NCBI RefSeq assembly: GCF_002846575.1
Contig: NZ_PJND01000007.1
Span: 930,001 to 994,000, forward strand
DNA length: 64,000 nucleotides
Source: Flavobacterium lindanitolerans
Lineage (GTDB): Bacteria > Bacteroidota > Bacteroidia > Flavobacteriales > Flavobacteriaceae
Direction of reading: 5' to 3'
The position numbers were made by a program, and so were the translations under genes. Positions 34,483-63,441 of the stretch are shown one piece after another (the stretch's first letter is position 1; the number at the start of each line of letters is the position of its first letter). The notes beneath the pieces are model-generated. The model was not told where the DNA came from and did no database searches. It worked only from the letters and a program-made list of their open reading frames with translations.

Positions 34483-34914
34483 TTATTTTGTCTTCACTGC
34501 ATATACAGTACCATCTTCGGCAATAGCTTTATCAATAATATAAAGATATTTTTTGCCTCCATAAGAACAGAAAACCTGTATTTTTCGGTCAAGAAACTGG
34601 TACAATATGATTTCGAAATTGCCATTAGCATTTTGAAATGAATAAATAGTAGCCAGATCATACAGGTCAGTGTGTTTGTCATCATAACCTGTTTTGTAAA
34701 TAGTAAATTTTTCTGCTGGAGTTCCTTTGAGTTCAAAGTCTACCGTAGTCAAACCAAAGAAAAATAGTCCTTCAGCCTTTTCCTCAGTACCTCTGATGTA
34801 ATCTCCTTTGCTGTCAACTGTTACAGGAAAACGACTTGAAAAAGCGAATTTGTAATCTTGCGAAAAAGCCGCAATTGAAAATAAAAATATAAAACTATAA
34901 ATCATTTTGTTCAT
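34483..34914 (-). CDS. Secreted hypothetical protein
   Basis: 143 residues with a short signal peptide (MIYSFIFLFSIAAFSQ). The mature part is beta-rich: DYKFAFSSRFP, then a paired set of strands and a final IIDKAIAEDGTVYAV. No recognised family. It follows the Imm11-like cluster on the same strand after a hairpin and may be unrelated to it. Confidence 0.65.
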   Translation of the reverse strand: MNKMIYSFIFLFSIAAFSQDYKFAFSSRFPVTVDSKGDYIRGTEEKAEGLFFFGLTTVDFELKGTPAEKFTIYKTGYDDKHTDLYDLATIYSFQNANGNFEIILYQFLDRKIQVFCSYGGKKYLYIIDKAIAEDGTVYAVKTK

Positions 34915-34983
34915 AATTATTTCTGCTAAGGATGCAGTTCCCTTTTGGTTAATAAAATTTTGGTAGTATTCTTTAGAGAAAAA

Positions 34984-35010
34984 TAAGGCATTCCGAATAG
35001 GGATGCCTTA
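34984..35010 (-). terminator. Hairpin after Imm11-like copy 1
   Basis: AAGGCATTCC and GGGATGCCTT pair. The same hairpin plus the following ATTAAATTATACAAATTC is repeated after each of the three Imm11-like genes (also near 35726 and 36463), showing that gene and hairpin were duplicated together. Confidence 0.7.
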
Positions 35011-35017
35011 CATTAAA

Positions 35018-35713
35018 TTATACAAATTCCAACTGGATTGAATTGTTATAATTCACTTCTAATCCAGTGATTTTACAGTCAAACAGAAAGTCTATTAATC
35101 GTTCAGAATAGAAATCGCCTCCGGCGGCTTGTATTGGGATTATATCTTTGCCATAATACTTTTTTGGGATGGCTATTTTTTCAAAACTATTAATTGGATT
35201 TGTTTTGATAAACTGAGAATATTCATCAAAATTTTCAATTGAATGATATTTTTCATTTTTCAAAACCTTACGACCAGTAAAAATTATCGATTTATTAAAA
35301 TTAATCTCCTGTAAAGTTACTTTCTTGAAATAAACAAGGTAAAATTTCGTGTTCAAATTAATGATTTCAAATTCAAATTCTTTAAAATCAATTGTTTTAA
35401 AGCCTTTTATTATTTCAAAATATTTTTCACTAAAAACATAAGTAAGAAAAGTATATTCTGGCGCATACCCCATAATATCCGTTACTTTGGCATTCTTTAG
35501 CAAATTTCCTTTAATAAGAGGAGGGTTCAACAATTTTATTTCATCTTGATTTTTCCAAAAATCCTTATTGTTATAATTGAAGAAATTTTTGAAAGCTAAG
35601 TAGTTACCATTATCGGTTTCCATATGGTTTTCATTAATATTTATTTGATATATACCATTTTTCACTCCAATAACTCTCGGCTCACAAGACAAAATTATTT
35701 CATAATATTTCAT
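35018..35713 (-). CDS. Imm11-like (DUF1629-type) immunity protein, copy 1
   Basis: 231 residues from the ATG at 35713 (MKYYEIILS), matching the other two copies; the frame to 35737 reads through the inter-copy hairpin and is rejected. Features shared with copies 2 and 3: an N-terminal GVKNGIYQI strand, a central LLKNAKVTDVMGYAPE, YSEKYFEIIKGFK-type helix and a C-terminal FLFDCKITGLEV. The layout resembles the Imm11 family that neutralises polymorphic toxins; the assignment is by pattern and context. Probably cytosolic. Confidence 0.6.
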   Translation of the reverse strand: MKYYEIILSCEPRVIGVKNGIYQININENHMETDNGNYLAFKNFFNYNNKDFWKNQDEIKLLNPPLIKGNLLKNAKVTDIMGYAPEYTFLTYVFSEKYFEIIKGFKTIDFKEFEFEIINLNTKFYLVYFKKVTLQEINFNKSIIFTGRKVLKNEKYHSIENFDEYSQFIKTNPINSFEKIAIPKKYYGKDIIPIQAAGGDFYSERLIDFLFDCKITGLEVNYNNSIQLEFV

Positions 35714-35724
35714 AGGTAAAGAAA

Positions 35725-35750
35725 TAAGGCATCCCATTAGGAATGCCTTG
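35725..35750 (-). repeat. Inter-copy hairpin between Imm11-like copies 2 and 1
   Basis: AAGGCATCCC and AGGAATGCCTT pair around a short loop. It is the second copy of the hairpin unit at 34984 and may also end transcripts of copy 2. Confidence 0.65.
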
Positions 35751-35757
35751 AATTAAA

Positions 35758-36450
35758 TTATACAAATTCTAACTGAACAGAATTGTTATAACCAACCTGT
35801 AAGCCCGTAATCCCGCAATCTAACAAGAAATCAACTAGCTTTTCAGAATAAAAATTGTTGGAAATAGCTTGAACAGATATAATATCTTTTCCAAAATGTT
35901 CTTTGTCAATAGCTATTTTTTCAAATGTGGCTAAAGGGTTGGAATTTAAGAATTGAACATATTCTTTACTATCAGATATACTATGATGCTTAACATTATT
36001 TAAAGCCTTATGACCTGTAATAACAGATGATTTTTCAAAATCAATTTTTTCATTCGAAATTGTCTCAATAAATAACAAAAAATACTTTGACGGGACATCA
36101 TTCATTTTAAAATCAAATGTTTGATGGACTCCGATATCAAAAGTTTTTATAATATCTATAAATTTTTGACTGTAAACATTATCTAAAAAACGAAAACTAG
36201 GTGCATAACCCATGACATCAGTTATTTTAGCATTTTTTAGCATTTTCCCATAAATTGTTGGTGGATTTAAGGTATACAGTTTATCCTGGGATTTCCAAAA
36301 ATCACTGTTTTTACTTGAGAAAAATGATTTAAATTCTTCATAAGAAGGACTATGGCCGATTGCTTTTTCATCTATTTCCAACTGGTATACACCATGTTTT
36401 ACCCCGATGACTTTAGGTTCAAAAGACCTATTAACTTCATAATATTTCAT
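35758..36450 (-). CDS. Imm11-like immunity protein, copy 2
   Basis: 230 residues beginning MKYYEVNRSFEPKVIGVKH. Same framework as copies 1 and 3 but the most divergent at the 3' end (LLDCGITGLQVGYNN instead of LFDCKITGLEVNYNN). No signal peptide. Tandem paralogs of immunity proteins typically cover related toxin variants. Confidence 0.6.
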   Translation of the reverse strand: MKYYEVNRSFEPKVIGVKHGVYQLEIDEKAIGHSPSYEEFKSFFSSKNSDFWKSQDKLYTLNPPTIYGKMLKNAKITDVMGYAPSFRFLDNVYSQKFIDIIKTFDIGVHQTFDFKMNDVPSKYFLLFIETISNEKIDFEKSSVITGHKALNNVKHHSISDSKEYVQFLNSNPLATFEKIAIDKEHFGKDIISVQAISNNFYSEKLVDFLLDCGITGLQVGYNNSVQLEFV

Positions 36451-36461
36451 AGGTAAAGAAA

Positions 36462-36487
36462 TAAAGCATCCCTATTAGGAATGCCTT
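36462..36487 (-). repeat. Inter-copy hairpin between Imm11-like copies 3 and 2
   Basis: AAAGCATCCCTA and TTAGGAATGCCTT pair with one weak position. Third copy of the hairpin unit. Confidence 0.6.
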
Positions 36488-36495
36488 ACATTAAA

Positions 36496-37182
36496 TTATA
36501 CAAATTCCAACTGGATTGAATTGTTATAATTCACTTCTAATCCAGTAATTTTACAATCAAACAAAAAATCGATAAGCTTTTCGGAATAAAATAATAATGA
36601 TGTTGGTTGTATTGAAATAATATTCAACTCTGCATGTTTTTTTGAAATACATATTTTTTCGAATTTAGCAAGAGGATTTTGTTGTTTAAACTCCCAATAT
36701 TCATCATAACTAAAAAAATTAAAATATTCTACGTTATTAAGTGCTTTGTGTCCAGTATAAATTGAAGAATGTTCGAAATTTATATCTCTTGATAAAATAG
36801 TTTCAAAAAACAGCATGAAATATTTTTCTTCTACATTTTCAATATCAACTTCAAATGTATTATAGTTGCCAATATTAAATGATTTTATAATGTCTATAAA
36901 TTTCCTGCTGTACACTAAATTAAGAAAGGAAATATTCTGTGTGTATCCCATGACGTCAGTAACATTTGCGTTCTTTAGCAATTTTGCATTTATTGCAGGT
37001 GACATAATGTTTTTTATTTCATTTTGTTGCTGCCAAAAATCTGTATTACTGCTCTTAAAGAATTTAAGTAATTCGTCATATCTGCTATCTTTTTCCAATA
37101 GTGGCAAGCCAATATCTATCTGATATAGTCCATTCTTTACGCCGGTAACATCAACATCTAAATCAACTTGGTAGTATTTCAT
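36496..37182 (-). CDS. Imm11-like immunity protein, copy 3
   Basis: 228 residues beginning MKYYQVDLDVDVTGVKNGL. Its last 20 residues equal those of copy 1 although the rest differs, which suggests gene conversion or duplication of the 3' end together with the hairpin. First Imm11-like gene to be transcribed, downstream of a hairpin at 37221. Confidence 0.6.
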   Translation of the reverse strand: MKYYQVDLDVDVTGVKNGLYQIDIGLPLLEKDSRYDELLKFFKSSNTDFWQQQNEIKNIMSPAINAKLLKNANVTDVMGYTQNISFLNLVYSRKFIDIIKSFNIGNYNTFEVDIENVEEKYFMLFFETILSRDINFEHSSIYTGHKALNNVEYFNFFSYDEYWEFKQQNPLAKFEKICISKKHAELNIISIQPTSLLFYSEKLIDFLFDCKITGLEVNYNNSIQLEFV

Positions 37183-37220
37183 AAATTAAAATCGTTTAAA
37201 ATAGGTATTAAGAGTGTAGA

Positions 37221-37256
37221 AAACACAGAAGTCAAGATTTTGAACTTCTGTGTTTA
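37221..37256 (-). terminator. Hairpin between the second DUF4304 gene and Imm11-like copy 3
   Basis: AAACACAGAAGT (37221-37232) and ACTTCTGTGTTT (37244-37255) pair, with T-rich sequence after it on the minus strand. Confidence 0.75.
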
Positions 37257-37272
37257 ACTTGAATAAAAATAG

Positions 37273-37754
37273 TTACCAATCTGTACTCAGATTAAAATGT
37301 TTCAATACGTGTGGAGGTATTGTATGTATGAACTCACGTCTTTTAAGGACTTGTAACAAATCATTTTCCGTCTGTATTGATTTAATTCAGGTACTATCTT
37401 TTTATTAATTACTTCAAATAATTTGATGAGTCGATCTGCTGTATCAATATCACTTTCGAGATCAAGCAAACCTTGTATCATAGCTTGCTCTTCTTTGTCG
37501 ATTGACCCTAACTGATTATCGATATGAACTTTTCTATTATTAAGAGGTAGACTATTTATTACATAATTATAATGTAAATAGTAAACATTTCCATATTGTG
37601 ACTTCTGAAGATTAATAATCTTATTAATCTCATTACCGTTCAAAACCCAACTATTTCCTTTCCTTTTAAAACCCAATGGAAGGAATATATTGTTTAATAG
37701 GTTTAATAATTCAGTTTTTTTCCATTTTAATATGTATCTAATACTGTTTTCCAT
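37273..37754 (-). pseudogene. Second DUF4304-type immunity gene, frameshifted at both ends
   Basis: The middle of the frame (37302-37754, 150 residues as read) is a clear paralog of the gene at 37902. At the N-terminus the ATG at 37723-37725 matches the paralog's start, but a run of seven A (plus-strand T, 37715-37721) puts it out of frame; with six A the product would begin MEKTELLNLLNNIF, aligning with MEKKDLERILSEIL. The only in-frame ATG is at 37754, inside the toxin remnant. At the C-terminus the paralogous string (LKRREF, later VLKHFNLSTDW with a stop at 37273) lies in another frame, so the read frame ends differently at 37302. Either a decaying gene or two read errors. A partly working product is possible. 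Confidence 0.7.
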
Positions 37755-37846
37755 ATTGTGCCGGGATATTCTGCCTCGAACGTAGCCATATATTTTGATA
37801 ATTGCTTTTCGTCTGCTTTCATTGCACGAGCATTAAAAGGCTTCAG
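37727..37846 (-). pseudogene. Orphan C-terminal toxin-tip fragment
   Basis: On the minus strand 39 codons plus stop encode the last part of the nuclease tip of the RHS protein: it begins LKPFNARAMKADEKQLSKY and ends GTIWKTVLDTY. 33 of 39 residues equal the C-terminus of the full-length protein ending at 38361. There is no start codon or PD/E catalytic part. It sits directly in front of the second DUF4304 gene, as the full tip sits in front of the first, so it is a displaced toxin-immunity module. Confidence 0.85.
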
Positions 37847-37861
37847 TTTTGGATTTTTGAA

Positions 37862-37897
37862 TATTACAGAAGCCACTTTTAAATGGCTTCTGTAATG
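37862..37897 (-). terminator. Hairpin after the first DUF4304 gene
   Basis: Perfect arms ATTACAGAAGCCA and TGGCTTCTGTAAT around a loop of about eight bases, 5 bases beyond the immunity stop codon. The T tract is weak, so termination may be partial. Confidence 0.6.
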
Positions 37898-37901
37898 AAA
37901 C

Positions 37902-38351
37902 CTAATCTATCGGTAAATTGAAATGTTTTTTCACCGACAATGTAATATCATTTAAATGTGGTCTCCTTTTTAATTCTTCCAAAATATCCGACTCATTATT
38001 AATACTTATGATATTAAGCATTAAATTTTCATACAATAAATCTTTTAATCTAATTTCTCGCTCACTATCAATTATTTGATATTCCAAGTCTAGCATATTT
38101 ATAATTTCCTCATTAGTGCTTTTATTTGATGCTCCGAGTCTATTATAAATATGTCTTTTAAGATTTCCTAATGGAATAGCATTAATAATATATCCATAAT
38201 TGATGTAGAATCTATTGCTATATTGAGACTTTTGCAAATCAATTATTTTAGTAATTTCATTATTATTTAAAGTCCAATAGCTGCCCTTTTTTTTAAAATC
38301 AGCTGGTTTCAAGATTTCGCTAAGAATTCTCTCAAGATCTTTCTTTTCCAT
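37902..38351 (-). CDS. DUF4304 immunity-type protein
   Basis: 149 residues. The pattern FKKKGSYWTLNNNEITKII, then LQKSQYSNRFYINYGYII, is characteristic of DUF4304, a family common next to polymorphic toxins. It begins 9 bases after the toxin stop codon on the same strand, as a cognate immunity gene should. No signal peptide, so it would protect the cytosol, in keeping with a nuclease toxin. Cognacy is inferred. Confidence 0.75.
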   Translation of the reverse strand: MEKKDLERILSEILKPADFKKKGSYWTLNNNEITKIIDLQKSQYSNRFYINYGYIINAIPLGNLKRHIYNRLGASNKSTNEEIINMLDLEYQIIDSEREIRLKDLLYENLMLNIISINNESDILEELKRRPHLNDITLSVKKHFNLPID

Positions 38352-38360
38352 TATTATAAA

Positions 38361-41300
38361 TTAATATGTATCTAATACTGTTTTCCATATTGTGCCAGGA
38401 TACGCTGCTTCAAAGGCGGCCTTGTATTTGGCTAATTGTTTTTCACCTGCTTTCATGGCCCTTGGATTAAAAGGTTTGAGCTCGTAAATGGTTCTGTTTA
38501 CCATGTCAACAAAATCAGGTCGGATTCCTGGAATTTCTCTAAACTCTTTGATTCCAAGACCCGCAGCTTCTTCCGCAACCTTATAAGCCTTGTGCATTTC
38601 CTGTCCCATCTTAAGGGAAGACTTGGTATATTTGGTGAGTTTTCCGAGGTCACCAATATAAGGAACTATTCCCACTGCTGCAATCATTGCATTAGTGTTT
38701 TGTCCTCGTGCTAAGTAACCAATGGCATTAAGCCCGTCGACAATACCTGTAGGGTCTAAGACACCTATAAGGTCCATACTGGTTTGAAAGTCATCCCATC
38801 GTTTTTCACGCAGTTCCTTGAAATGATATTCATATAAGCCGCTTTTTCTGTACACCCAGTCCTGCATGATGTATTGCGCACCGAATGTGCCCCATGAAAG
38901 ACCGGCACTGTTTCCGTAAACTTCTACTTCAGGAAGGTTTATGGAGATCGTAAAGTCATGTATCTTGGCTTTTTTTATCTTTAATTGGGCAGAATTTCCA
39001 CTAAGCAATGCGTTAATGAATTTGTAGATATCTTTCGCTTCATCACCGTTGGCTTCAAAGCCCCAACCATAATTGTAAACGTCTGCTCCGCTAGGGTCAG
39101 ACCAGTAGGCAGGATTATTGTCATGACCGTTGTAGGGCGACCTTTCATAGTGCACCACAGGGTCAATTCCAGTCCAGCGTCCTATGGCAGGGTCGTAGTC
39201 CCTTGAAGGCATATCGAAAAGGTTTAGATTAAATTCTTCCTGAAACTCCTGCCCGTTGAATTTGTAATTGTATACGTAAGGGATGGGACAGGCTGGGCAA
39301 AATTCTATCAGGCCACCAATTTCCCTGTCATACATCCTTTTGGTCATGTTATAGTTCTTGTGTGATAGGCCTAAAGAGTAGTAGTTATTTTCCTCCATGA
39401 TGGCTACCTGCTGTGTAGCCGGGTTCATAGTATAGCTTAGCCTGATGTTGCCCAGGTGGTCTGTGTAATTGTACACATAGTTGAACGTGGCAGGCCTTGA
39501 ACCACCGGCAGCGGAGTATTTTACATATCCTTCAGTAGTGGCTATGGCTTCCAATATGCCATTTACGTAATCAAAACCGTCAAGATATTCTATCACCTTG
39601 ACTGGACGGGGAACTTCTGTAACCGTCTTTTTGAGCTTTTCCCCTAAAGCATTATACGTATATTCGATGGTAGCTCCCGTTGCAGCCCCCCAATTGAAAT
39701 AAATCTTTAGGGGCTGGTTGAGATGATTGTAGATAATTTTCTCTATAAGTTTGTTCTGGTCGGATTTTATATTACCGTTGATGTCATAGCTGTAATCATC
39801 TGCATTGTCATTGAACCCATCGCCGTCATCCATGAAGCCTGCGGGCTTTCCGGTATAATCTGTTACCTTGGAAATACGGTTTGAATTGGGTTCGTAAGCA
39901 TATTCCAGGTCATCAATCATCATTGCCGTAACCACATCATCAAATTCGCCATAACGTTCCAGTTTCCTGATATTGCCGTTTTTGTCATACTCCTGGCTTT
40001 CCTTATAGGAATTTGGTGCCGATACGCTTTCTGGTTTATGATAGGAAGTAGACGTAAGGCGGCCCATACTGTCGAACTGATAGGCATGCCTGCGCAGGAT
40101 GTTGTCGTTTGCCGTTCTCCAATAGGTTTCTGATATGTTACCGTTGAACTGTGCCTGAGTTGCCTGTGGGTTATCATACACGATTTTGAAGGCAAAAAGG
40201 TCCGCAGGCTCGCCCGGTTGTGTCAGGGAAGCGACTTTGTTGATTTCCTTGAGCCAGCCTCTTACGGTATAGGAATAGTCAATTTTCTGCAACGGAGAAC
40301 CTCCCGTCAGGTCGGTTCCGCCAGTCCTTTTTGAAATAAGCTGACCCAGTTCGTCATAGCTGTTCATGGTTAATAATTCAGTTGCCCTGCTGCCAATTTT
40401 ATGTGTATGGGTGAGTAGGCGGTCCTGGTCGCTATAGGTAAAGTCTTCCCTTATGCTTATGGCACTGCTTGAAGCAGTCCGCTTATGCTCCAGAACGGTG
40501 TACAATGTTTTGCCCGAAAAGTCGAATTTGGCATCTTGTTGGGTGTATCCTCCCAGGTAGTTGGACGACCATGTGCGGATAGCCCTTGCTTTATAATCGT
40601 ACAATATATAAGCTAGTTCGCCCGCGGTTGCAGTGGTAGTTTCAATCACCCTTATCCACGAACCGGTTGGAAGCCCCTTTGGCTTGACCGACAGGTTGTA
40701 GAATACGGGCTGACCTTCAATGTTAGGGAAGCTGGTTGGTGCTCCAGGGAAATCGTAATCATCGTAGTAATTGACAGAAAGGATATGGCATGCCGGACCA
40801 GTCGGCCATGTCTGGTTGGAGTAGCGGAATGTCACGCCATTTACGTTGCTGTCTGTAGCCGTTTTATTCTCATTGAGGTTTGCGATTTGGGTATCGCGCG
40901 CCATCTGTAGAGTGTTCCTGTTACCTGAAGTGACGCGGGCCTGCATCCATCCGGTGTAGGCTACTCGACCATACACATCATATTTGGAAAACAGCCAACC
41001 TATATTATTGGGCTCGACACTGTTGCTAAATGGGGAAAAGGCAGGTCCGGTGGCAATCGGCCTATCTAAGTTGTCATAGATGATAAACTCCCATGTCTTA
41101 CCAGGTTCTTTCTTCTCAACTAGCCTGTTACGGCCGTCATAGCGATATTGGTAGCAGAGCCCCTCCAAATCGGCTGTTGAACCGCTGCCGTCTGACATTG
41201 GGGGCAATACGAAGGTTAGATTTCCGAATTGGTCATAAACATAATAGGTGTCATGCCAGCTTTCCGTATGTATCCCGTTTACAGTTGATGTGCCGTACTT

Positions 41301-42032
41301 GCGTTTCAGGATTACCTGTCCTTTCTTATTCTTGTATTCTTGTACCGTATTGTCATTTCCGGAAGTCCAGTTCTCGTCTTTCATCAGGTACTTGTAAAGC
41401 GTGCCTTCGGTGTAGAAGCCGTCTTGTGTCAGAGTGGCAGGATAATATCCTCCGCTAGGGGTTCCTGCAACAGCTTTGTATACCTTTATTTGATCAGCCG
41501 TGCTATTTGTGAGGTATTCCATCCTTACCGTATGATCGCTATCGGCAGGAGTTGAGGGAAGAATCCATTTGCTTCCGGGTGAAGCCTGTTTCGCTACTCT
41601 TCCAAAAGGGGAGGTCTCAAATTGCTTTTCAGAATATGGGTTTCCTGTAGCTTCAAAATCAGGATTTCCAGTTCTTGCCATTGTTGGCGAAGCATAAAAG
41701 GAAAGGCTTTCGGTAGCTGCATTGGCATCATACTGTTTCGTGGCCGAAGTACTTACATAGGGCAAGAATCCTTTTGACTGGCGTCCCGAAGCGTCGTATT
41801 CGATATGGGTCACTATATCCTTACCGGTGTTTGATTGCATGTATGCCCGGTGCTGTATGGGTCTTCCTAACTTGTCAAAGTAGGAGAAATTCTGGATAGC
41901 CTGCGAAACGGAAGGGTCCGCTACTGAGGTAGCAGTTTCCGTCTTGTAAATGATGGTCTTTATATGGCTCTGTTCCTGTGCCTGTCCTATGGTAGACAGC
42001 AGGAGTATTATGATTATTGCTATTTTTTTCAT
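38361..42032 (-). CDS. DUF6443/RHS-repeat polymorphic toxin with PD-(D/E)XK-like nuclease tip
   Basis: 1223 residues. Signal peptide (MKKIAIIIILLLSTIGQAQ), DUF6443 region about residues 40-160, YD/RHS repeats through the middle, and the RHS-core signature ending in DPSGAD at residue 984. The 239-residue variable tail contains a pretoxin-like segment (LDPTGIVDGLNAIGYLARGQ) and then RPDFVD, YELK and QLAKY: Pro1172-Asp1173, Glu1184-x-Lys1186 and Gln1199/Tyr1203, the layout of a PD-(D/E)XK nuclease. The toxin is probably a DNase or RNase released from the RHS shell. The gene starts 6 bases after the upstream RHS gene and is followed by its immunity gene. Confidence 0.85.
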   Translation of the reverse strand: MKKIAIIIILLLSTIGQAQEQSHIKTIIYKTETATSVADPSVSQAIQNFSYFDKLGRPIQHRAYMQSNTGKDIVTHIEYDASGRQSKGFLPYVSTSATKQYDANAATESLSFYASPTMARTGNPDFEATGNPYSEKQFETSPFGRVAKQASPGSKWILPSTPADSDHTVRMEYLTNSTADQIKVYKAVAGTPSGGYYPATLTQDGFYTEGTLYKYLMKDENWTSGNDNTVQEYKNKKGQVILKRKYGTSTVNGIHTESWHDTYYVYDQFGNLTFVLPPMSDGSGSTADLEGLCYQYRYDGRNRLVEKKEPGKTWEFIIYDNLDRPIATGPAFSPFSNSVEPNNIGWLFSKYDVYGRVAYTGWMQARVTSGNRNTLQMARDTQIANLNENKTATDSNVNGVTFRYSNQTWPTGPACHILSVNYYDDYDFPGAPTSFPNIEGQPVFYNLSVKPKGLPTGSWIRVIETTTATAGELAYILYDYKARAIRTWSSNYLGGYTQQDAKFDFSGKTLYTVLEHKRTASSSAISIREDFTYSDQDRLLTHTHKIGSRATELLTMNSYDELGQLISKRTGGTDLTGGSPLQKIDYSYTVRGWLKEINKVASLTQPGEPADLFAFKIVYDNPQATQAQFNGNISETYWRTANDNILRRHAYQFDSMGRLTSTSYHKPESVSAPNSYKESQEYDKNGNIRKLERYGEFDDVVTAMMIDDLEYAYEPNSNRISKVTDYTGKPAGFMDDGDGFNDNADDYSYDINGNIKSDQNKLIEKIIYNHLNQPLKIYFNWGAATGATIEYTYNALGEKLKKTVTEVPRPVKVIEYLDGFDYVNGILEAIATTEGYVKYSAAGGSRPATFNYVYNYTDHLGNIRLSYTMNPATQQVAIMEENNYYSLGLSHKNYNMTKRMYDREIGGLIEFCPACPIPYVYNYKFNGQEFQEEFNLNLFDMPSRDYDPAIGRWTGIDPVVHYERSPYNGHDNNPAYWSDPSGADVYNYGWGFEANGDEAKDIYKFINALLSGNSAQLKIKKAKIHDFTISINLPEVEVYGNSAGLSWGTFGAQYIMQDWVYRKSGLYEYHFKELREKRWDDFQTSMDLIGVLDPTGIVDGLNAIGYLARGQNTNAMIAAVGIVPYIGDLGKLTKYTKSSLKMGQEMHKAYKVAEEAAGLGIKEFREIPGIRPDFVDMVNRTIYELKPFNPRAMKAGEKQLAKYKAAFEAAYPGTIWKTVLDTY

Positions 42033-42038
42033 TTTGGC

Positions 42039-44960
42039 CTAGTTTTGGTTTGTCAGTTTATAGCTGGTTTCTGAAATCAGCTTCCCGTTTCTGTCCCTTA
42101 TCGCCTTGGTTCTTCCGAAGGAATCATATTCGTACGAAATCCTGTCGCCTTTTGGGTCAGTCACGGTTGAGATGCCAATAAGTGGTTTGTAGGTATAGGT
42201 GGTAGGCATCGCATTGGCAAGTATCGTACTATTTCGTAGCAGATCGAGTTTCTGCAATACTGTAGTTTCATTTCCGCTGTCTGTAGCCGTTTGTATATCG
42301 GTGATTAGACTAGCAGTTATAGCTGTATAGGGCATATTCTCTATCTGTGCTACCAAGACCGTTTTATTATAGCCCCAGATATAGCTCGTCTTTTTTCCGT
42401 TAGGCTGTTCGCTCTGCAGCAGGTTGCCATATTCGTCATAGAGATTGTACCTCATTTCTACAATTTCCTGCTCGCCTGCTTTTGAATAAGAAAGCTCGGA
42501 TGGGAGCCATGCAGTATTTCCCGACCAGTTGTTTGAGTGCTTTGTCCATTTTGTGGCCACAAGGCTGCCGTTGTAGTAATCCTCACTCTTTTCGAGCAGT
42601 GCAAATTTGTACTCGTTCAGAGGTAGGCCCATCGTATTGTAATAGTAGACGCTCTTGATTGCCTCTCCTGCGGAGTTGGTAGTCTCTTCCGATTCAAGGC
42701 TACGGTTGGCATCGCGGTGGTACTTGTATTGCGTTGTCTGGGTAATAGGGGCGGAACCTGTGGAATATACGGTTACGGTCTCACTTTCGGTCCTTACCTT
42801 GGCAGTACGGTCAACGACAGTCCTGTCCATGTAATAATTCTGCCAACGTGTACCGTCATAAAAACGGTAGGTATAGTCTGTGTTCTTGACAAGGACGTTG
42901 TTTCTGTCATAGTCTTTCCTGTTTTTGAGCAGGCCTCTCCTGAAATCCTGAGATAGGCTGATATGGCCATCGTAATCGAGGTCCATTCCAGGGTAATCGG
43001 CCGATGTGGTAAAGGTATATTGCGATTTCCCGTTGTTTCCGCTATCGGTTACCGTTACGTTTCGGTAACTTACGAACTCAAGATGCCCGTATGATTCCCT
43101 AAAGTTGTGCCTGTCACTGGAAACCAGGTTGCCACTGCTACGATTCGGTTCATCAAACAGATTGTAATCATACCGCGTTTCCTTTACTGGCGTATATTCA
43201 GGATATCCGTAATAATCTTTCTTCCTAAAATAATCGGCAGGTACGTCGGCATCAAAGTGGGCAATCCTCTTGATACGTATCCCCCCGCCGTATTTCCATT
43301 TTTTCAGGTCTGGGTTCCTTCGTATAGAATGTATAACTCTGGTTGCAGTCATTGGAATATTGCTTTGAGAAATATGGCCAAGCTGAATGGTGTAGGTTCC
43401 AGGATTAAGGGTATAGCTTCTACCGTAGCCGAAGTTTTCGGGATTGTACGTCCTGTAAAAGGGAAACTGTTTTTCTGTTTGAGGCAGTTGTTGTCCTGCT
43501 ATTGTGATTGAAGGAGTTACCCAAGTATTGCTCAGTTCGCTGAAATATGGGTCCTCACGTATGAAGATGCACACCTCCTTTGGAGCGCCGCTGATAGTGA
43601 AGAAGGAATGGTTCGATATCCTGCCGTTGTAAAGTTCTTCCACAATATGGTTGTACGGATAGGTAGTTTCTCCCCCGTAGTAGGTATAATAGCTTTCAGG
43701 GTCTTCAACGTGGCCCCCACCTGGAACGGAATTTTCAGAAATTGAGCTTCCTTTGAAGTACGAGTAAGTGTTTGATTCGTATTCATACAAGACGGTTCCT
43801 CCCGTAGGGAGCAGGATTTTCTCAAGCACTCCCTTGGTGCAGAACTTTGGATTCACCGCGTAGTCTACGAGTACTTGAAGGTCCTCGTGCTGTTCTGAAC
43901 GGATAAATGTCGGGTATCCGTAGGGGTCGATTCCAAAAATACCATAGTCTGTACTGTAATCCCCGTAGGTTCCGTCGCTGTAGCTGAAATGGTACTCATC
44001 TCCTTTTGTTTGTGCCGCATCGCGAAAGGTCAGCTTGTCCCATTGTCTGAGGTCGATTCGTTTTAGAATATTCGAGTTGAGGTCTGTTAACGTAATTTCG
44101 TCCAGGGTTGCCGACACAGAATTTGCCGAGCTAGCTCCAAAAGTATGGGAAAAGTTTATTTTTCCTAAACCTTCGGATTGGATGGAGGTCAGCTTGTTAA
44201 TGGTTGAGTATTCGCGCATTGCTACGGTTTGCCGTTCCAAGGTACTCAATTCATTGTAGGCAAAGGTGAGCAGTTTCTTACCATTGCTGTCATAGACGGC
44301 CGAAAGGTTGAAACTCTTTGGTACGTTTTTGGTAATGGAGCCTGGGTTAATATATCCGAGAGTTCTGTCAACCACATCGAAGACATATTTATAATTATTA
44401 GAATCATAAATAGTAAAGGAATTTACCCTGAAAGTCGAAGGTTCGTAATCAAGTGTTACCTTAAGTGTTTCTCCCTTTCCCGAATAAAGGGAAGGGACGA
44501 GATTGTTGTTGGCATCCGTAATAAGATAGAAGATTCCTGAATGTCCCATAAAATTGAACTGGTAGCGGTCACTGTAATATCTAGTCTCGGTGGCAGTCTC
44601 TTCACTTACGTAACTGTACCAGGCATTTTCAATAGTCCTTACGATGCTGCCACCCCTGTTAATTGACCAGCCAGGCTGTCTGATGTCGTCATGCACTGCA
44701 CCGTCTGCAGCTATACTTGTTGGATGATAGGATATTTCCATATTTACACCAATATCCTTACTACGAGTAGGTAAGGATAGCAAGGGTATGCTAATATCAG
44801 GCACGCCAGTAGAAAGATTAACAGGAACGTTATCGAATCTGAAAACGCTAGCGGCTGTGTTTGCGATTGAGCCTTGACCATATTCCGTGGTCATTGGCTG
44901 TACTTGTGCATCCACTAGCAAATTTGTGGCTAGAAATATGATTGTTAATAATTTTCTCAT
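42039..44960 (-). CDS. Secreted RHS/YD-repeat protein, toxin partner
   Basis: 973 residues with a signal peptide (MRKLLTIIFLATNLLVDAQ). An N-terminal region with STGVPDISIPLL and ISYHPTSIAADG, then long beta-rich repeats and a C-terminal YD-repeat part (YDEYGNLLQSEQPNGKKTS, ISYEYDSFGRTKAIRD). It lacks the RHS-core signature and any toxin tail. Placed 10 bases after the T9SS protein gene and 6 before the toxin gene, so it is likely a shell or export partner of that toxin, as split RHS/Tc-type genes often are. The role is inferred from architecture. Confidence 0.75.
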   Translation of the reverse strand: MRKLLTIIFLATNLLVDAQVQPMTTEYGQGSIANTAASVFRFDNVPVNLSTGVPDISIPLLSLPTRSKDIGVNMEISYHPTSIAADGAVHDDIRQPGWSINRGGSIVRTIENAWYSYVSEETATETRYYSDRYQFNFMGHSGIFYLITDANNNLVPSLYSGKGETLKVTLDYEPSTFRVNSFTIYDSNNYKYVFDVVDRTLGYINPGSITKNVPKSFNLSAVYDSNGKKLLTFAYNELSTLERQTVAMREYSTINKLTSIQSEGLGKINFSHTFGASSANSVSATLDEITLTDLNSNILKRIDLRQWDKLTFRDAAQTKGDEYHFSYSDGTYGDYSTDYGIFGIDPYGYPTFIRSEQHEDLQVLVDYAVNPKFCTKGVLEKILLPTGGTVLYEYESNTYSYFKGSSISENSVPGGGHVEDPESYYTYYGGETTYPYNHIVEELYNGRISNHSFFTISGAPKEVCIFIREDPYFSELSNTWVTPSITIAGQQLPQTEKQFPFYRTYNPENFGYGRSYTLNPGTYTIQLGHISQSNIPMTATRVIHSIRRNPDLKKWKYGGGIRIKRIAHFDADVPADYFRKKDYYGYPEYTPVKETRYDYNLFDEPNRSSGNLVSSDRHNFRESYGHLEFVSYRNVTVTDSGNNGKSQYTFTTSADYPGMDLDYDGHISLSQDFRRGLLKNRKDYDRNNVLVKNTDYTYRFYDGTRWQNYYMDRTVVDRTAKVRTESETVTVYSTGSAPITQTTQYKYHRDANRSLESEETTNSAGEAIKSVYYYNTMGLPLNEYKFALLEKSEDYYNGSLVATKWTKHSNNWSGNTAWLPSELSYSKAGEQEIVEMRYNLYDEYGNLLQSEQPNGKKTSYIWGYNKTVLVAQIENMPYTAITASLITDIQTATDSGNETTVLQKLDLLRNSTILANAMPTTYTYKPLIGISTVTDPKGDRISYEYDSFGRTKAIRDRNGKLISETSYKLTNQN

Positions 44961-44970
44961 AATGAAATCT

Positions 44971-46590
44971 TTATTGTTTGTTGCTTGCCTTCACAACTTT
45001 TACGGAGTCGTTCTGTATATTGGTACGTATCTCAATGATGTAGATTCCTTCAGGCATTCCCCCAAGGTCAACGGGAACGGTACGGTCGGTAATTTCAAAA
45101 TGCTGTAACTGCCTTCCCGATAGGTCATAAACGGTAGCCGTTCCCTTTTGGAATTCGTAGCCCACAAGAACGTTGGTATAGTGCAGGGTAGGGTTTGGAT
45201 AGGCTTCAATCGGGTTTTTCTTTTCTTCCTTCTTGCGCTTGTCCTTTAGCTTTACGACCCAGAAATCGTTGCGGCCCTGTCCCGAATAACGGTCGCGCGA
45301 AGGTGCGCCCATTGAAGTACCGGCAAGTATATAGCCGCCGTCACGGGTTTCTATTACTTTTCGTAGAATGTCCTCACCATTGCTGCCAACGGTCTGCGTC
45401 CACTGTTCCTCGCCTTTTTCATCTATTTTGATGGCAATATAATCGTTGATTCCTTCCCGGTCTTTTTTATTGGTTACGTGCTTCTCGCTCTGTGCGTGTC
45501 CGCCCAGAAGCAGCGAGCCGTCCCTGTTTTCTTCTATGGAGGTGAGCAGGTCGGTCTGCCCGATGTCGTAGGTCTTCTGCCATAGAATTTCACCAGACGG
45601 GTCTATTTTCAGTAACCAGAAGTCGGTTCCCTTTCCGTTGGATGCATTTTTGTTGCCTGTAGTTGCGGAAGAAGAACTTCCTGCCAAAAGAAAATTGTTG
45701 TCCTTTGTTTGCAGTAGAGCCTGTAGCTGGTCATCACCATCGCCACCATAGGCTTTCTGCCATTTCAGTTCTCCTTTTTGGTCAAGTTTAATGACCCAAT
45801 AATCTGACATGCCGTAGCACTTCTCGGACTTGTTTCCGGATTCCGGCGAGTTAGATGAACCGCCTAATAAATAACCTCCATCGCGCATCTGCACTGCGCT
45901 TCGGAGCTGGTCGGCATAAATGCCGCCATAGGTCTTTTGCCACTCAATTTTTCCTTCCGAATCGAGCTTTACTGCCCAATAATCAAGATTCCCAAATCCC
46001 GCTTCCGATTTTCCGAACGGGTCAGGCTGGCCTGCGGTGAGTTTTGCGCTTTTGGCAGAGCTGGAAGTCCCCGCAATTAGGTAGCCGCCGTCTGAAGTTG
46101 GCACAACGCTCTGCAGCAGTTCCTGCCCGGAGCCGCCTATGGTGCGTTGCCACTGTTCGCCTCCCCTGGCGTTGAGCTTGATAATCCAGAAGTCTTCCTT
46201 TCCAAAGCCTTCGTCTTTTTTGTAGTCTCCCTTTGGCGAGTCGGAGGTACCCGCAAGAATGAAACCGCCGTCGCGTGTGAGCCTTACGGACTGAAGCAGG
46301 TCTGCTCCTGAACCGCCGAAAGATTTCTGCCAATCCAACTCGCCTTTTTCGTCCATCTTCCAGAGGAAGTAGTCGAGGTCGCCGTTACCATCATCAGTCT
46401 TGTTTCCCGTTTTTTTTGAAAGTGAGCTTCCCGCGAGGATGAAGCCGTAGTCGGGGGTAGGCTGGGCGTCGAACAGGTAGTCAGAATGTTTCCCGCCATA
46501 AGATTTCTCCCAGAGGATGTCTTGCGCTTGCAAAACACCTCCAAATAGCATTGCACAGGGCAATGCTAAGCAAAGTTTTGTTTTTTGCAT
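44971..46590 (-). CDS. T9SS-exported propeller-like repeat protein
   Basis: 539 residues: signal peptide ending VLQAQ, about seven repeats of 60-70 residues with the pattern WQKxxGG, then D-LxSVxxTxDGGxxLAG and a DYW/DFW-KL segment, then a T9SS type A tail (IEAYPNPTLHYTNVLVGYEF, ending VVKASNKQ). The repeats suggest a beta-propeller or similar surface fold. First gene of the toxin locus operon, transcribed with the two RHS genes. Its export by T9SS suggests that the toxin is displayed through the outer membrane by the same route, which is inference. Confidence 0.8.
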   Translation of the reverse strand: MQKTKLCLALPCAMLFGGVLQAQDILWEKSYGGKHSDYLFDAQPTPDYGFILAGSSLSKKTGNKTDDGNGDLDYFLWKMDEKGELDWQKSFGGSGADLLQSVRLTRDGGFILAGTSDSPKGDYKKDEGFGKEDFWIIKLNARGGEQWQRTIGGSGQELLQSVVPTSDGGYLIAGTSSSAKSAKLTAGQPDPFGKSEAGFGNLDYWAVKLDSEGKIEWQKTYGGIYADQLRSAVQMRDGGYLLGGSSNSPESGNKSEKCYGMSDYWVIKLDQKGELKWQKAYGGDGDDQLQALLQTKDNNFLLAGSSSSATTGNKNASNGKGTDFWLLKIDPSGEILWQKTYDIGQTDLLTSIEENRDGSLLLGGHAQSEKHVTNKKDREGINDYIAIKIDEKGEEQWTQTVGSNGEDILRKVIETRDGGYILAGTSMGAPSRDRYSGQGRNDFWVVKLKDKRKKEEKKNPIEAYPNPTLHYTNVLVGYEFQKGTATVYDLSGRQLQHFEITDRTVPVDLGGMPEGIYIIEIRTNIQNDSVKVVKASNKQ

Positions 46591-58198: not shown

Positions 58199-60046
58199 TT
58201 AAGAATAGATAATTCGGAAAGGAACAATGTTGATGGCCCGGTTTTCAATCATCAATTTTAAATCTTCACTTAGGAAATACCATTCTTCCTCATTATAATA
58301 TTCTTTGTCCTTTCTTTCGAGATAGATGTCAATAGTGGGAGTATAGCCCACATTGCTGTCCAGGCTGGTCTGAATACCATTTTTTACTTCCACTTTTGTA
58401 ATAGCATCACCAAAATGATTTTTGCAGAGAATGATAATGTCCTGACGTGTTACCACTCTCTGGTTAGAAACCAGGTTTTCACGATAGGCATAGATTTTCT
58501 CCGAATTGGAAAGTTCGTCTTTTCCGCCCTGGGTTGTAGACAGAAACATAATGTTGTCTCTTTCAAAATCGGAACCTTTATGGGCGACCAATCTTGAAAA
58601 GGTATTAATCTTGTTGGCGCTTTCGCCATTGGTTGTCCAATATTTGGCGAATAAGGTTCCTTTGTTGGAATTGCTGGTAGTATTGAGTATTAAATACGGG
58701 TTATTGATATTTTGCATACCTACCTGTGACATCTTATTTCTGAAACGTGAAATAATCTGGTTGATTTCTTTCAGGTTATTGTCTGTAAAATCATGTCCGA
58801 GTCTGGAAAATGCCGCGGCTTCATCCCGAATCAGGTCAATGAGATAGTTTATTTCTTCCGTCGCATTTCTTTCGTCAAAACGGGCAATGCCTCCAAAACG
58901 CAGGTAGGCATAGTCGTTGTCGCCCTTTTCATCATCGTTTTTGATAACGTCAAACTCGTTGTTCTTGTCATCAGTAACCGAGAAAAGCTCAAGAAAAAAC
59001 TCGTTGTTCAGGTTCAGCGGATAAATATTCAGGAGGTTTTTGATATTTCCCTGTACCTCATTCAGTTTTTTATTGATGACAGGAAAACAATTGTTGGCGC
59101 AAAAGATTTCAGAAAGAATATCTTTCCCGATAACATTAGGAAACTCAATACGAATCCAAATCAGTTTTTCGTCAGCCAGAACTTTTAATTCTTCAGCAGG
59201 AATAAAACTACTCAATTCTGAAGGCAAGGAATAGTTATTATCAATATTGATAATGTCTTTTATAGTGATAAAATTCTTGCGGAAATAGTCGTTTGCGTGT
59301 TCCTGTGTCCGTTCAATATGATAGAATTCTTCCTGAATGAGTTCACCGTAATTGTTGGAATAATTTTCATCGTTGTTGTATCCCTGCACAGTCTGCAACA
59401 AATGGTCGTTCAAATACCATTTGGCACGTGGCAGGAAATGGAAAAAGGTATTCCTGTTGTGGATATTTTTCAGATAAAAATAAAACATCAGGTCTTTGAT
59501 GATTCCGTCGCCCTGGTGTTTTAGTCCAAGCCAGATGGTTCCGTGAGGTGCCGGCTTAATGTAATTATTACTGCTGACCGTTTCCCGGAACTGTTCTTTC
59601 ACAATCTGCTGTACTCCGCTTGGAAGGATTACATAGTTGAGTTTATTGCGGTTCAATTTTACAGGCTTTGTTGGCCCGAAAAAATAGTTTTTGATTATGT
59701 TTTCTGTCGGATTGTACGGATTTGCCTCTTTTTTCTGGAAGTAAAACTGATGATGGTCATTTAGTATCACTTCATTTTCTACAGGATAGGCCCTCACAAT
59801 GGCTCTTGCCGGTGTTGCTTTAGCCGATGCTGTTGGTGTAAGGATATCGACCAGCCGTTCTGTAATCCTTCTTCGGCTGGAATAGATTTCGTTGGAAATT
59901 TTTTCCAATTCTTTGGCGCATACATCAAAAAGCAAATTGACAATAGGGTCAAAGACATTTTCCAGTTCCACGTCAGAATAGCCCCATTGTTTGGCGGCAC
60001 GTTTGAGTAGTCGGTCTTTAATCTGATCTTTTGATAATGAATTCAT
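58199..60046 (-). CDS. tssF: Type VI secretion baseplate protein TssF
   Basis: 615 residues. Features of TssF: N-terminal SNEIYSSRRRITERLVDILTP, central beta domains, and LVAHKGSDFERDNIMFLSTTQGG plus TRQDIIILCKNHFGDAIT near the end. With TssE and others it builds the T6SS baseplate. Last gene of the cluster in this window; no tssG follows. Confidence 0.85.
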   Translation of the reverse strand: MNSLSKDQIKDRLLKRAAKQWGYSDVELENVFDPIVNLLFDVCAKELEKISNEIYSSRRRITERLVDILTPTASAKATPARAIVRAYPVENEVILNDHHQFYFQKKEANPYNPTENIIKNYFFGPTKPVKLNRNKLNYVILPSGVQQIVKEQFRETVSSNNYIKPAPHGTIWLGLKHQGDGIIKDLMFYFYLKNIHNRNTFFHFLPRAKWYLNDHLLQTVQGYNNDENYSNNYGELIQEEFYHIERTQEHANDYFRKNFITIKDIINIDNNYSLPSELSSFIPAEELKVLADEKLIWIRIEFPNVIGKDILSEIFCANNCFPVINKKLNEVQGNIKNLLNIYPLNLNNEFFLELFSVTDDKNNEFDVIKNDDEKGDNDYAYLRFGGIARFDERNATEEINYLIDLIRDEAAAFSRLGHDFTDNNLKEINQIISRFRNKMSQVGMQNINNPYLILNTTSNSNKGTLFAKYWTTNGESANKINTFSRLVAHKGSDFERDNIMFLSTTQGGKDELSNSEKIYAYRENLVSNQRVVTRQDIIILCKNHFGDAITKVEVKNGIQTSLDSNVGYTPTIDIYLERKDKEYYNEEEWYFLSEDLKLMIENRAINIVPFRIIYS

Positions 60047-60057
60047 TGATGATGCTT

Positions 60058-60489
60058 TTATTTAAATGAAAATGGCGCTAGAAAATAAGAACTCTTGTAA
60101 TAATAAGGCTGGTTTGTTTTTTTGATTACTCCGTAAACCACAATGTCAAGACGTTTTTTGACGCGAATATTGGTTTCGTAGCTTACCGTATCTTCACTTA
60201 CGCCAAGCGTTACATCGGTAACTGTCAGTCGCTTTTCATATTTTTTCACCTTTTCATGTACAGATTCTTTAATCATGTCTTTGAGCTGGTTGGCATTAGA
60301 CAACAGGTTAAAATCGGTTTCCCAGATAATGGTGCCAAAATCGTCATCATATTTATATTCTCCGAAAATCGTAGTGATTATCAGGGAAATATACTGTGCT
60401 AAAGATTCTTCGATAGTGACTTTCCTTATATCTTCACCGCTTGACAGCCGCTTAAAATCAATTGGAATCTTGTAGTATAGGTCTTTCAT
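60058..60489 (-). CDS. tssE: Type VI secretion baseplate protein TssE (gp25-like)
   Basis: 143 residues with a GPW/gp25 fold: SLAQYISLIITTIFGEYKYD and DDDFGTIIWET. Its first 32 bases overlap the end of tssH (60458-60489). 11 bases separate it from tssF. Confidence 0.85.
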   Translation of the reverse strand: MKDLYYKIPIDFKRLSSGEDIRKVTIEESLAQYISLIITTIFGEYKYDDDFGTIIWETDFNLLSNANQLKDMIKESVHEKVKKYEKRLTVTDVTLGVSEDTVSYETNIRVKKRLDIVVYGVIKKTNQPYYYKSSYFLAPFSFK

Positions 60490-62914: not shown

Positions 62915-62925
62915 GATTTTCTGAT

Positions 62926-63441
62926 TTAGTTCGTCCTTCTGTTCAATTGCTGCGTTAATCTCAGGTCGCGGAGCAATTCCTTATTCTCTTCTTCGTATTC
63001 TTTTAATTGCTTGTTGAGCAGGTCAATTTCCTTTTTAGAATCATTGACTTGCAACAACAGTTTCTTTGTTTTAACCAAATCGTTAATCGTCAGAATGACA
63101 TTGTCATATAGTTTTAGCCCCTGGTCAGAATCGGCAGGGATTTTTTCTTTCAAGTCTACCAATTCAAAGCTGATGTTCTGTTCAATGAACTGGAAGCTTT
63201 CAGGAGCCTTGTCTAATGAGTCAATCAAAACGCCAATGTGTTCCAACCTGTCAGAGAATTGTTTCTGAAAGTTAAACTCGGTCATGATTTTGTCATTTTC
63301 GCTTTTGAGGACCTCATTTTCTTTCAAAGGCAGCTTGTAATTGAAAAATATCGCAAAAAACAATACTCCTGTCGTGATGATAAACATCAATAGGAACAGG
63401 AGGAAAGCGGAAGTTCGTTCTTTTCTATTTAAAATATCCAT
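62926..63441 (-). CDS. tssO: Type VI secretion protein TssO (subtype iii)
   Basis: 171 residues with one membrane helix (about residues 14-33) and a long coiled coil beyond it (DSKKEIDLLNKQLKEYEEEN). TssO is one of the components special to the Bacteroidota T6SS. Identity rests on length, topology and position between tssH and tssK. Confidence 0.7.
   Translation of the reverse strand: MDILNRKERTSAFLLFLLMFIITTGVLFFAIFFNYKLPLKENEVLKSENDKIMTEFNFQKQFSDRLEHIGVLIDSLDKAPESFQFIEQNISFELVDLKEKIPADSDQGLKLYDNVILTINDLVKTKKLLLQVNDSKKEIDLLNKQLKEYEEENKELLRDLRLTQQLNRRTN

Follow-up and report, generated by a model that had tools for sequence, protein, structure and literature searches.

A conserved three-gene cassette of Flavobacterium lindanitolerans, most likely an RHS polymorphic toxin with a split Tc-like shell and a T9SS-tailed partner

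We analyzed a 64,000-nucleotide stretch of the Flavobacterium lindanitolerans genome (the window, G000:C7:930001-994000; genome size, 3.72 Mb), which carries on its minus strand a cassette consisting of a partner gene, two rearrangement hotspot (RHS) genes, RHS-B and RHS-C, and a DUF4304 gene (DUF4304 gene 1), in that order. The partner bears a sorting tail of the type IX secretion system (T9SS), and RHS-C ends in a variable toxin tail. The cassette is most likely a variant of the RHS polymorphic toxins in which a shell similar to that of the toxin complex (Tc) toxins is split between two proteins and accompanied by a T9SS-tailed, propeller-like partner, and the partner, RHS-B, and RHS-C genes are conserved together. 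The reading that fits these data best is that the T9SS would export the RHS proteins by way of the tailed partner. All of the open reading frames (ORFs) were confirmed (Table 1), with gaps of 10 bp between partner and RHS-B, 6 bp between RHS-B and RHS-C, and 9 bp between RHS-C and DUF4304 gene 1, as expected from the initial annotation, made from the sequence alone, which had described a minus-strand operon with tiny gaps.

The cassette is not a chance arrangement, since two extra copies exist in the same genome and dozens elsewhere. The two copies (L046 and L047) are complete and have the identical gene order; the partners show 87% and 73% identity to that of the window, and the matched stretches of their RHS-C proteins are 41-49% identical to the window RHS-C. 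The tail of L046 is a Tox-URI2 domain, and that of L047, with no Pfam match at the threshold used, has an Imm26 gene 3' of it. Outside this genome we compared 80 partner loci, the best 80 of 566 candidates from named public genomes; more distant partners fall outside this sample, and two of the loci, from metagenome-assembled genomes labeled Limnohabitans and Rhizobium, were taken as misbinned contigs. RHS-B lies directly 3' of the partner and on the same strand at 76 of the 80 loci, so the three-gene order on which the initial annotation had staked its reading is indeed kept as a unit in other Bacteroidota. RHS-C was found no more than 8 kb from the partner at 64 loci; of the remaining 16, 14 had fewer than 260 bases of contig remaining, and the other two (L119 and L135) had 1.2 and 1.4 kb left with no RHS-C match. 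At a single locus of the 80 (L079, from F. endophyticum), RHS-B and RHS-C are encoded as one ORF of 2334 amino acids with DUF6443 in the middle of the protein. Two other frames, of 2209 and 2414 amino acids, were considered as further fusions and rejected, each being two ORFs. Rearranged loci also occur, with RHS-C following the partner and RHS-B divergent in L127 and L169, and RHS-B divergent in L119.

Most of the named records in which a close partner occurs are Flavobacterium, and a partner with an adjoining RHS-B was also found in Mucilaginibacter, Moheibacter, and one Pedobacter contig. At L078, from Pedobacter sp. ASV17, the partner is 91% and RHS-C 77% identical to those of the window, with RHS-B split into two ORFs; its presence on a Pedobacter-labeled contig reflects either a recent transfer or contamination. 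Within a panel of 100 genomes, 18 contain both partner and RHS-B, one the partner only (G028, where it sits at a contig end), two RHS-B only (G006 and G060), and 79 neither. The 19 partner-bearing genomes do not include G009, G016, and G040, whose partner matches (143-230 bits) are near the 150 bits of an unlinked paralogue in the window genome. By hand count, the partner adjoins RHS-B at 40 of the 50 judgeable panel loci (53 in total, with the contig-edge loci G064:C5, G052:C25, and G096:C71 excluded). Among these 40, the partner is cut by a contig end at G064:C4, G052:C33, G052:C132, and G096:C162, has a short frame in G088 (300 amino acids, near 191598), and is divergent from RHS-B in G057.

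The partner was correctly described as a T9SS-tailed repeat protein. Its tail matches TIGR04183 at 39.7 bits (cut-off, 23) and PF18962 at 31.7 bits (cut-off, 27), and the rest of the protein contains seven D[YF]xxxK-type motifs spaced about 60 residues apart. When the partner profile (A1) was compared with PDB chains, it matched CylK (chain 7fh8) at 89 bits, in the propeller part of CylK, and also chains of T9SS C-terminal domains (CTDs), and we infer from the sequence that the partner is a seven-blade propeller. A LipL53-type identity was discarded, as the match reached only 65.8 bits against a cut-off of 400. Read by eye, the N-termini of the partner, RHS-B, and RHS-C are all Sec-type signals, which agrees with the Sec signals noted earlier on both RHS proteins; in the fetched loci, a crude signal rule was satisfied by 69 of 74 RHS-B proteins, 57 of 60 RHS-C proteins, and 60 of 79 partners. 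The partner therefore has the characteristics of a T9SS type A substrate, namely, a Sec-type signal, a type A CTD, and a genome that contains SprA, the component by which the T9SS was searched for. SprA was over the cut-off in 94 of the 100 panel genomes and was matched in all 19 that bear the partner, although in G011 it is in two pieces, each with an internal stop.

Both RHS proteins are recognizable by their RHS repeats (families PF05593 and TIGR01643 in the cassette), and RHS-C also matches the RHS core model TIGR03696 (43.3 bits; cut-off, 32.5). RHS repeats were the sole matches of RHS-B in the family-model scans, with no toxin family among them, which bears out its description as an RHS protein without toxin. 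In the same scans, neither RHS-B nor RHS-C matched a PAAR or VgrG family or a T9SS tail model. As phmmer searches of both proteins against the PDB gave no useful match, we relied on profiles and predicted models. The predicted model of RHS-B consists of an SpvB-like N-terminus and a TcB-like half shell, and that of RHS-C appears to form the second half shell, so that both the TcB and the TcC halves are recognized in the models. The best PDB match of the RHS-C profile is the TcC subunit YenC2 (43 bits). In Tc toxins the propeller is built into the B subunit; the RHS-B model could be aligned with YenB for 613 residues over positions 21-1264 of YenB, with no counterpart for about 630 of the residues in that interval. 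The RHS-C model matches TcC chains from its residue 196 onward (approximately residue 220 of the protein), and its earlier part maps upstream in the fused chain. Because the two models occupy consecutive parts of the TcB-TcC and Rhs shells, RHS-B and RHS-C most likely form one split cocoon.

This resemblance raises the question of whether the cassette is a Tc (ABC) toxin that lacks an A component of its own, which would borrow TcA from elsewhere and be aimed at eukaryotes. The match of the predicted shell halves to TcB-TcC folds, the YenC2 hit, the peptidase or lipase families found in some tails, and the TcA_TcB_BD matches of two of the 100 panel genomes (G004 and G008, both partner bearing) fit such a toxin, but the window genome has no TcA_TcB_BD (PF18276) match, nor do 17 of the 19 panel genomes with the partner, the toxin is accompanied by an immunity-type gene, and a T9SS-tailed protein is found in the cassette instead of TcA, so we consider this origin very improbable.

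The initial annotation had given the DUF6443-RHS protein a variable tail of 239 residues, and this length is right, since the DPSG motif of RHS-C ends at residue 982 and, at that point, column identity among 43 RHS-C rows drops from 0.65 to 0.10-0.18. The putative toxin at the end of the tail belongs to the nuclease family Tox-REase-9, as anticipated for a nuclease toxin, and holds a PDF...ELK stretch at residue 1172 that would be consistent with the restriction-endonuclease fold given by Pfam. Only one other Tox-REase-9 was found among 247 genomes of the phylum, likewise as an RHS tip; 10 bp after it lies a DUF4304 gene with 54% identity to DUF4304 gene 1. As the Tox-REase-9/DUF4304 pair recurs, DUF4304 gene 1, placed immediately 3' of RHS-C, is most likely the cognate immunity gene, and the genomic context thus provides the candidate immunity gene of an RHS polymorphic toxin.

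The toxin gene is followed by several other immunity-type candidates, with DUF4304 gene 2, three paralogues of about 230 residues, and a small secreted-type protein lying 3' of DUF4304 gene 1. Displaced toxin tips with their immunity genes are a general pattern of Rhs loci. DUF4304 gene 2 is likely the immunity gene of a displaced toxin, whose tip would have left the 120-bp remnant between the two DUF4304 genes. An orphan RHS tip that has a different tail and lies 3' of L046, the second cassette in this genome (L046:3325-4431, minus strand), is probably a displaced toxin module too. The earlier label of immunity-type genes is firm for the two DUF4304 genes and less so for the other four, as the three paralogues and the 143-residue protein had no family over the cut-off in the family-model scans. 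The 228-residue paralogue belongs to a set of 64 proteins (itself included), none of which has a Pfam domain, and since the paralogues have no match in the loci compared, their immunity label is based on position only.

The cargo of the cassette is diverse. We aligned 57 RHS-C tails (54 from the 80 loci and three from the window genome), and their mean column identity was 8%, versus 31% for the 43 RHS-C rows. At an E value of ≤0.01, the tails match 24 Pfam families, most of them in one tail each, including nuclease types (REase-9, URI2, GIY-YIG, HNH, and NucA/NucB), peptidases, lipases, an amidase, CdiA_C, Tlde1, Ntox24, and some families without a known toxin role. An exchangeable C-terminal toxin behind RHS repeats and an RHS core places the cassette among the RHS polymorphic toxins. 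Of the three proteins, RHS-B has diverged the most, with a mean distance of 0.73, compared with 0.47 for RHS-C and 0.39 for the partner, and its conservation is lowest at residues 401-550, a region of low model confidence. The distances of 50 loci gave Mantel correlations of 0.83 for partner and RHS-C, 0.47 for partner and RHS-B, and 0.51 for RHS-B and RHS-C; as they were calculated without species-tree control, we do not take them as proof of contact. Some RHS-B proteins are much larger (1375-2196 amino acids). The extra part of the one that was scanned (L133:11595-18182) contains 14 DUF5977 repeats, and the other long RHS-B genes (L102, L103, L111, L120, and L123) are perhaps alike.

Gene content, its conservation, the fused B-C ORF, the polymorphism of the tails, the recurrence of the toxin/DUF4304 pair, and the presence of SprA, together with the half-shell folds of the predicted models, are the basis for the model that we favor, with slightly better than even confidence: a T9SS-linked, split-shell RHS polymorphic toxin exported via its tailed partner. 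RHS-B and RHS-C would reach the periplasm by Sec and assemble there into one cocoon, the counterpart of a TcB-TcC shell, or of a single-chain Rhs shell, divided between two proteins, with the variable toxin tail enclosed. The partner, the only bearer of a T9SS signal in the set, would bind the shell and either carry it over the outer membrane via SprA/PorV or retain it on the surface. T9SS CTDs have been described to bind within the SprA pore with PorV (PMC10994853). From the surface, the nuclease tail would reach a neighboring cell, presumably a bacterium, while DUF4304 would shield the producer and its kin. An export and display cassette, as initially proposed, is thus backed by the conserved unit, the nuclease-family toxin, the Sec-type signals, and SprA; its weaker part is the T9SS export of RHS proteins that have no T9SS tail of their own, which we infer. 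A more specific version, which we regard as tentative, is a Tc-like cocoon in two proteins whose docking propeller has turned into a separate T9SS-tailed carrier, so that the signal-less shell rides through SprA and the fast-evolving face of RHS-B chooses the target cell.

Several observations weigh against T9SS export through the partner. Ten of the 50 judgeable RHS-B loci have no adjoining partner (five in G006, three in G060, and two in G033:C14), the strongest finding against the idea that the partner is strictly required, and the correlation between partner and RHS-B distances is weak with RHS-C held fixed (partial r, 0.11). The whole-chain Foldseek superpositions on 6h6g are poor for both RHS-B (TMq, 0.41; rmsd, 22.9) and RHS-C (TMq, 0.44; rmsd, 8.7), so the half shells match in fold and order but do not agree in exact shape. 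The cocoon may also be large for the translocon, and among the matches listed in the open-licence PubMed Central literature there is no precedent for a CTD-less or piggyback mode of T9SS export. The partner could instead be a separate T9SS surface protein (a receptor, anchor, or activator), with the shell leaving the cell by outer membrane vesicles, lysis, or an unknown exporter. The lack of a T9SS tail on the RHS proteins and the partner-less pairs of G006, G060, and G033:C14 are in agreement with this, as is the second T9SS-tailed propeller-type protein of L169, which indicates that RHS pairs are not limited to a single such protein; the partner's almost invariable place next to RHS-B (76 of 80 loci) and its retention beside the RHS genes in the rearranged L119, L127, and L169 make it rather unlikely.

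The chief competing route for the RHS proteins is the type VI secretion system (T6SS), because a partial T6SS cluster is located in the window and TssC is overrepresented in the genomes with the partner, both of which also count against the T9SS. The cluster (positions 58199-63441, minus strand) contains TssF-like (19.9 bits, under the cut-off), gp25/TssE-like, ClpV-like AAA, and TssO genes, the TssC gene lies outside the window at a distance of about 5 kb, and TssC is present in 8 of the 19 partner-bearing genomes versus 4 of the other 81 (Fisher P, ~1e-4). Delivery by T6SS nevertheless seems improbable, given the Sec-type signals on both RHS proteins, the missing PAAR and VgrG matches, and the 11 of 19 partner-bearing panel genomes in which TssC had no match.

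Table 1. Coordinates of the cassette and of the genes and remnant 3' of it; positions are those of the window
Feature	Positions	Strand	Basis or remark
Partner, 539 aa, Sec-type signal, propeller-like, T9SS type A tail	44971..46590	-	Family models, motif reading
Partner T9SS type A sorting domain, residues 464-534	44989..45201	-	TIGR04183
RHS-B, 973 aa, Sec-type signal, toxin-free	42039..44960	-	RHS-repeat matches, predicted model
RHS-C, 1223 aa, DUF6443-RHS, Sec-type signal, toxin tail	38361..42032	-	Family models, predicted model
DUF6443 domain of RHS-C, residues 25-161	41550..41960	-	PF20041, 122.9 bits
RHS-C variable tail, residues 985-1223	38361..39080	-	Conservation drop; tail alignment
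Tox-REase-9 domain of RHS-C, residues 1135-1223	38364..38630	-	PF15650, 92.3 bits
DUF4304 gene 1	37902..38351	-	PF14137, 45.7 bits
Toxin-end remnant, 120 bp, 81.7% identity to 3' end of RHS-C toxin	37730..37849	-	
DUF4304 gene 2	37302..37754	-	PF14137, 40.4 bits; 43% identical to gene 1
Paralogue 1 of 3, 228 aa	36496..37182	-	Immunity-type by position only
Paralogue 2 of 3, 230 aa	35758..36450	-	53% identical to paralogue 1
Paralogue 3 of 3, 239 aa	35018..35737	-	50-51% identical to paralogues 1 and 2
Small protein, 143 aa, signal-like N-terminus	34483..34914	-	83% identical copy 3' of L078 RHS-C

Other proteins were seen beside RHS genes. A second large propeller-type protein is encoded after the divergent RHS-B at L169:3616-7776 and at L119:1949-6004 (minus strand), and that of L169 contains SBBP repeats, Ig domains, and a CHU_C (type B) T9SS signal. 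Beside the partner-less RHS pairs of G006 there are arrays of proteins of 210-410 amino acids (L162:10649-17639 and L158:456-4064, minus strand). Several of the array proteins have coiled-coil-like ends, the two that were scanned had no Pfam family over the cut-off, and they are possibly another kind of accompanying protein.

Among the matches listed in the open-licence PubMed Central literature, we found no experiment on the cassette and no description of its split shell, nor any literature there on DUF6443, and the word "Rhs" does not occur in the main text of two T9SS reviews (PMC11205867 and PMC10202324). To call the route less described is therefore fair, but the Rhs-T9SS neighborhood is already in print for Apibacter. 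In that account, which deals with Apibacter only, the majority of rhs genes adjoin genes with T9SS type A sorting domains and are probably not T6SS effectors (mSystems 2021, PMC8125069). For A. raozihei, a 2025 paper describes 27 RHS genes whose expression was higher in one strain than in a second, and it lists three RHS genes as effector genes of the T9SS (PMC12645872).

The cassette points to a likely carrier protein, two container halves, and a cargo. The T9SS is a widespread outer membrane exporter of Bacteroidota. The suggestion that it may arm these bacteria against their neighbors has been in print since 2020-2021 (PMC7073777 and PMC8125069), and the recurrence of the cassette with many different tails makes this idea testable by deleting a small number of genes. 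Were the shell to travel with no signal of its own, the T9SS would have a piggyback mode of export.

Among known systems, the T6SS Rhs effectors (RhsA, RhsP, Tre23, and Tse5) share the RHS shell fold and, as in the cassette, have a C-terminal polymorphic toxin and an adjacent immunity gene, but their shells are single chain, whereas the cassette has no PAAR match and carries Sec-type signals. The Tc toxins (YenB/YenC2 and TcdB2/TccC3) are similar in that two proteins map on one RHS shell, with the toxin at the C-terminus of the second and an SpvB-like N-terminus in the first. The cassette differs from them in that its genome has no TcA match, its split point is elsewhere, it has Sec-type signals and immunity-type genes, and a T9SS-tailed propeller-like protein is encoded by a separate gene. 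The TANFOR toxins, for which T9SS export has been proposed, are also Bacteroidota toxins, mostly with a signal peptide, and with an enrichment of T9SS-tailed neighbors (PMC7073777); the family scans of the cassette gave no TANFOR match, with library coverage of TANFOR not established, and the carrier in the cassette is an RHS shell in two proteins. Apibacter also has RHS genes beside genes with T9SS type A tails in Bacteroidota and N-terminal SpvB/TcdB-type domains rather than PAAR, while the split two-protein shell, the propeller partner, and the fusion gene are features of the cassette that do not appear in the available text of the Apibacter account (PMC8125069).
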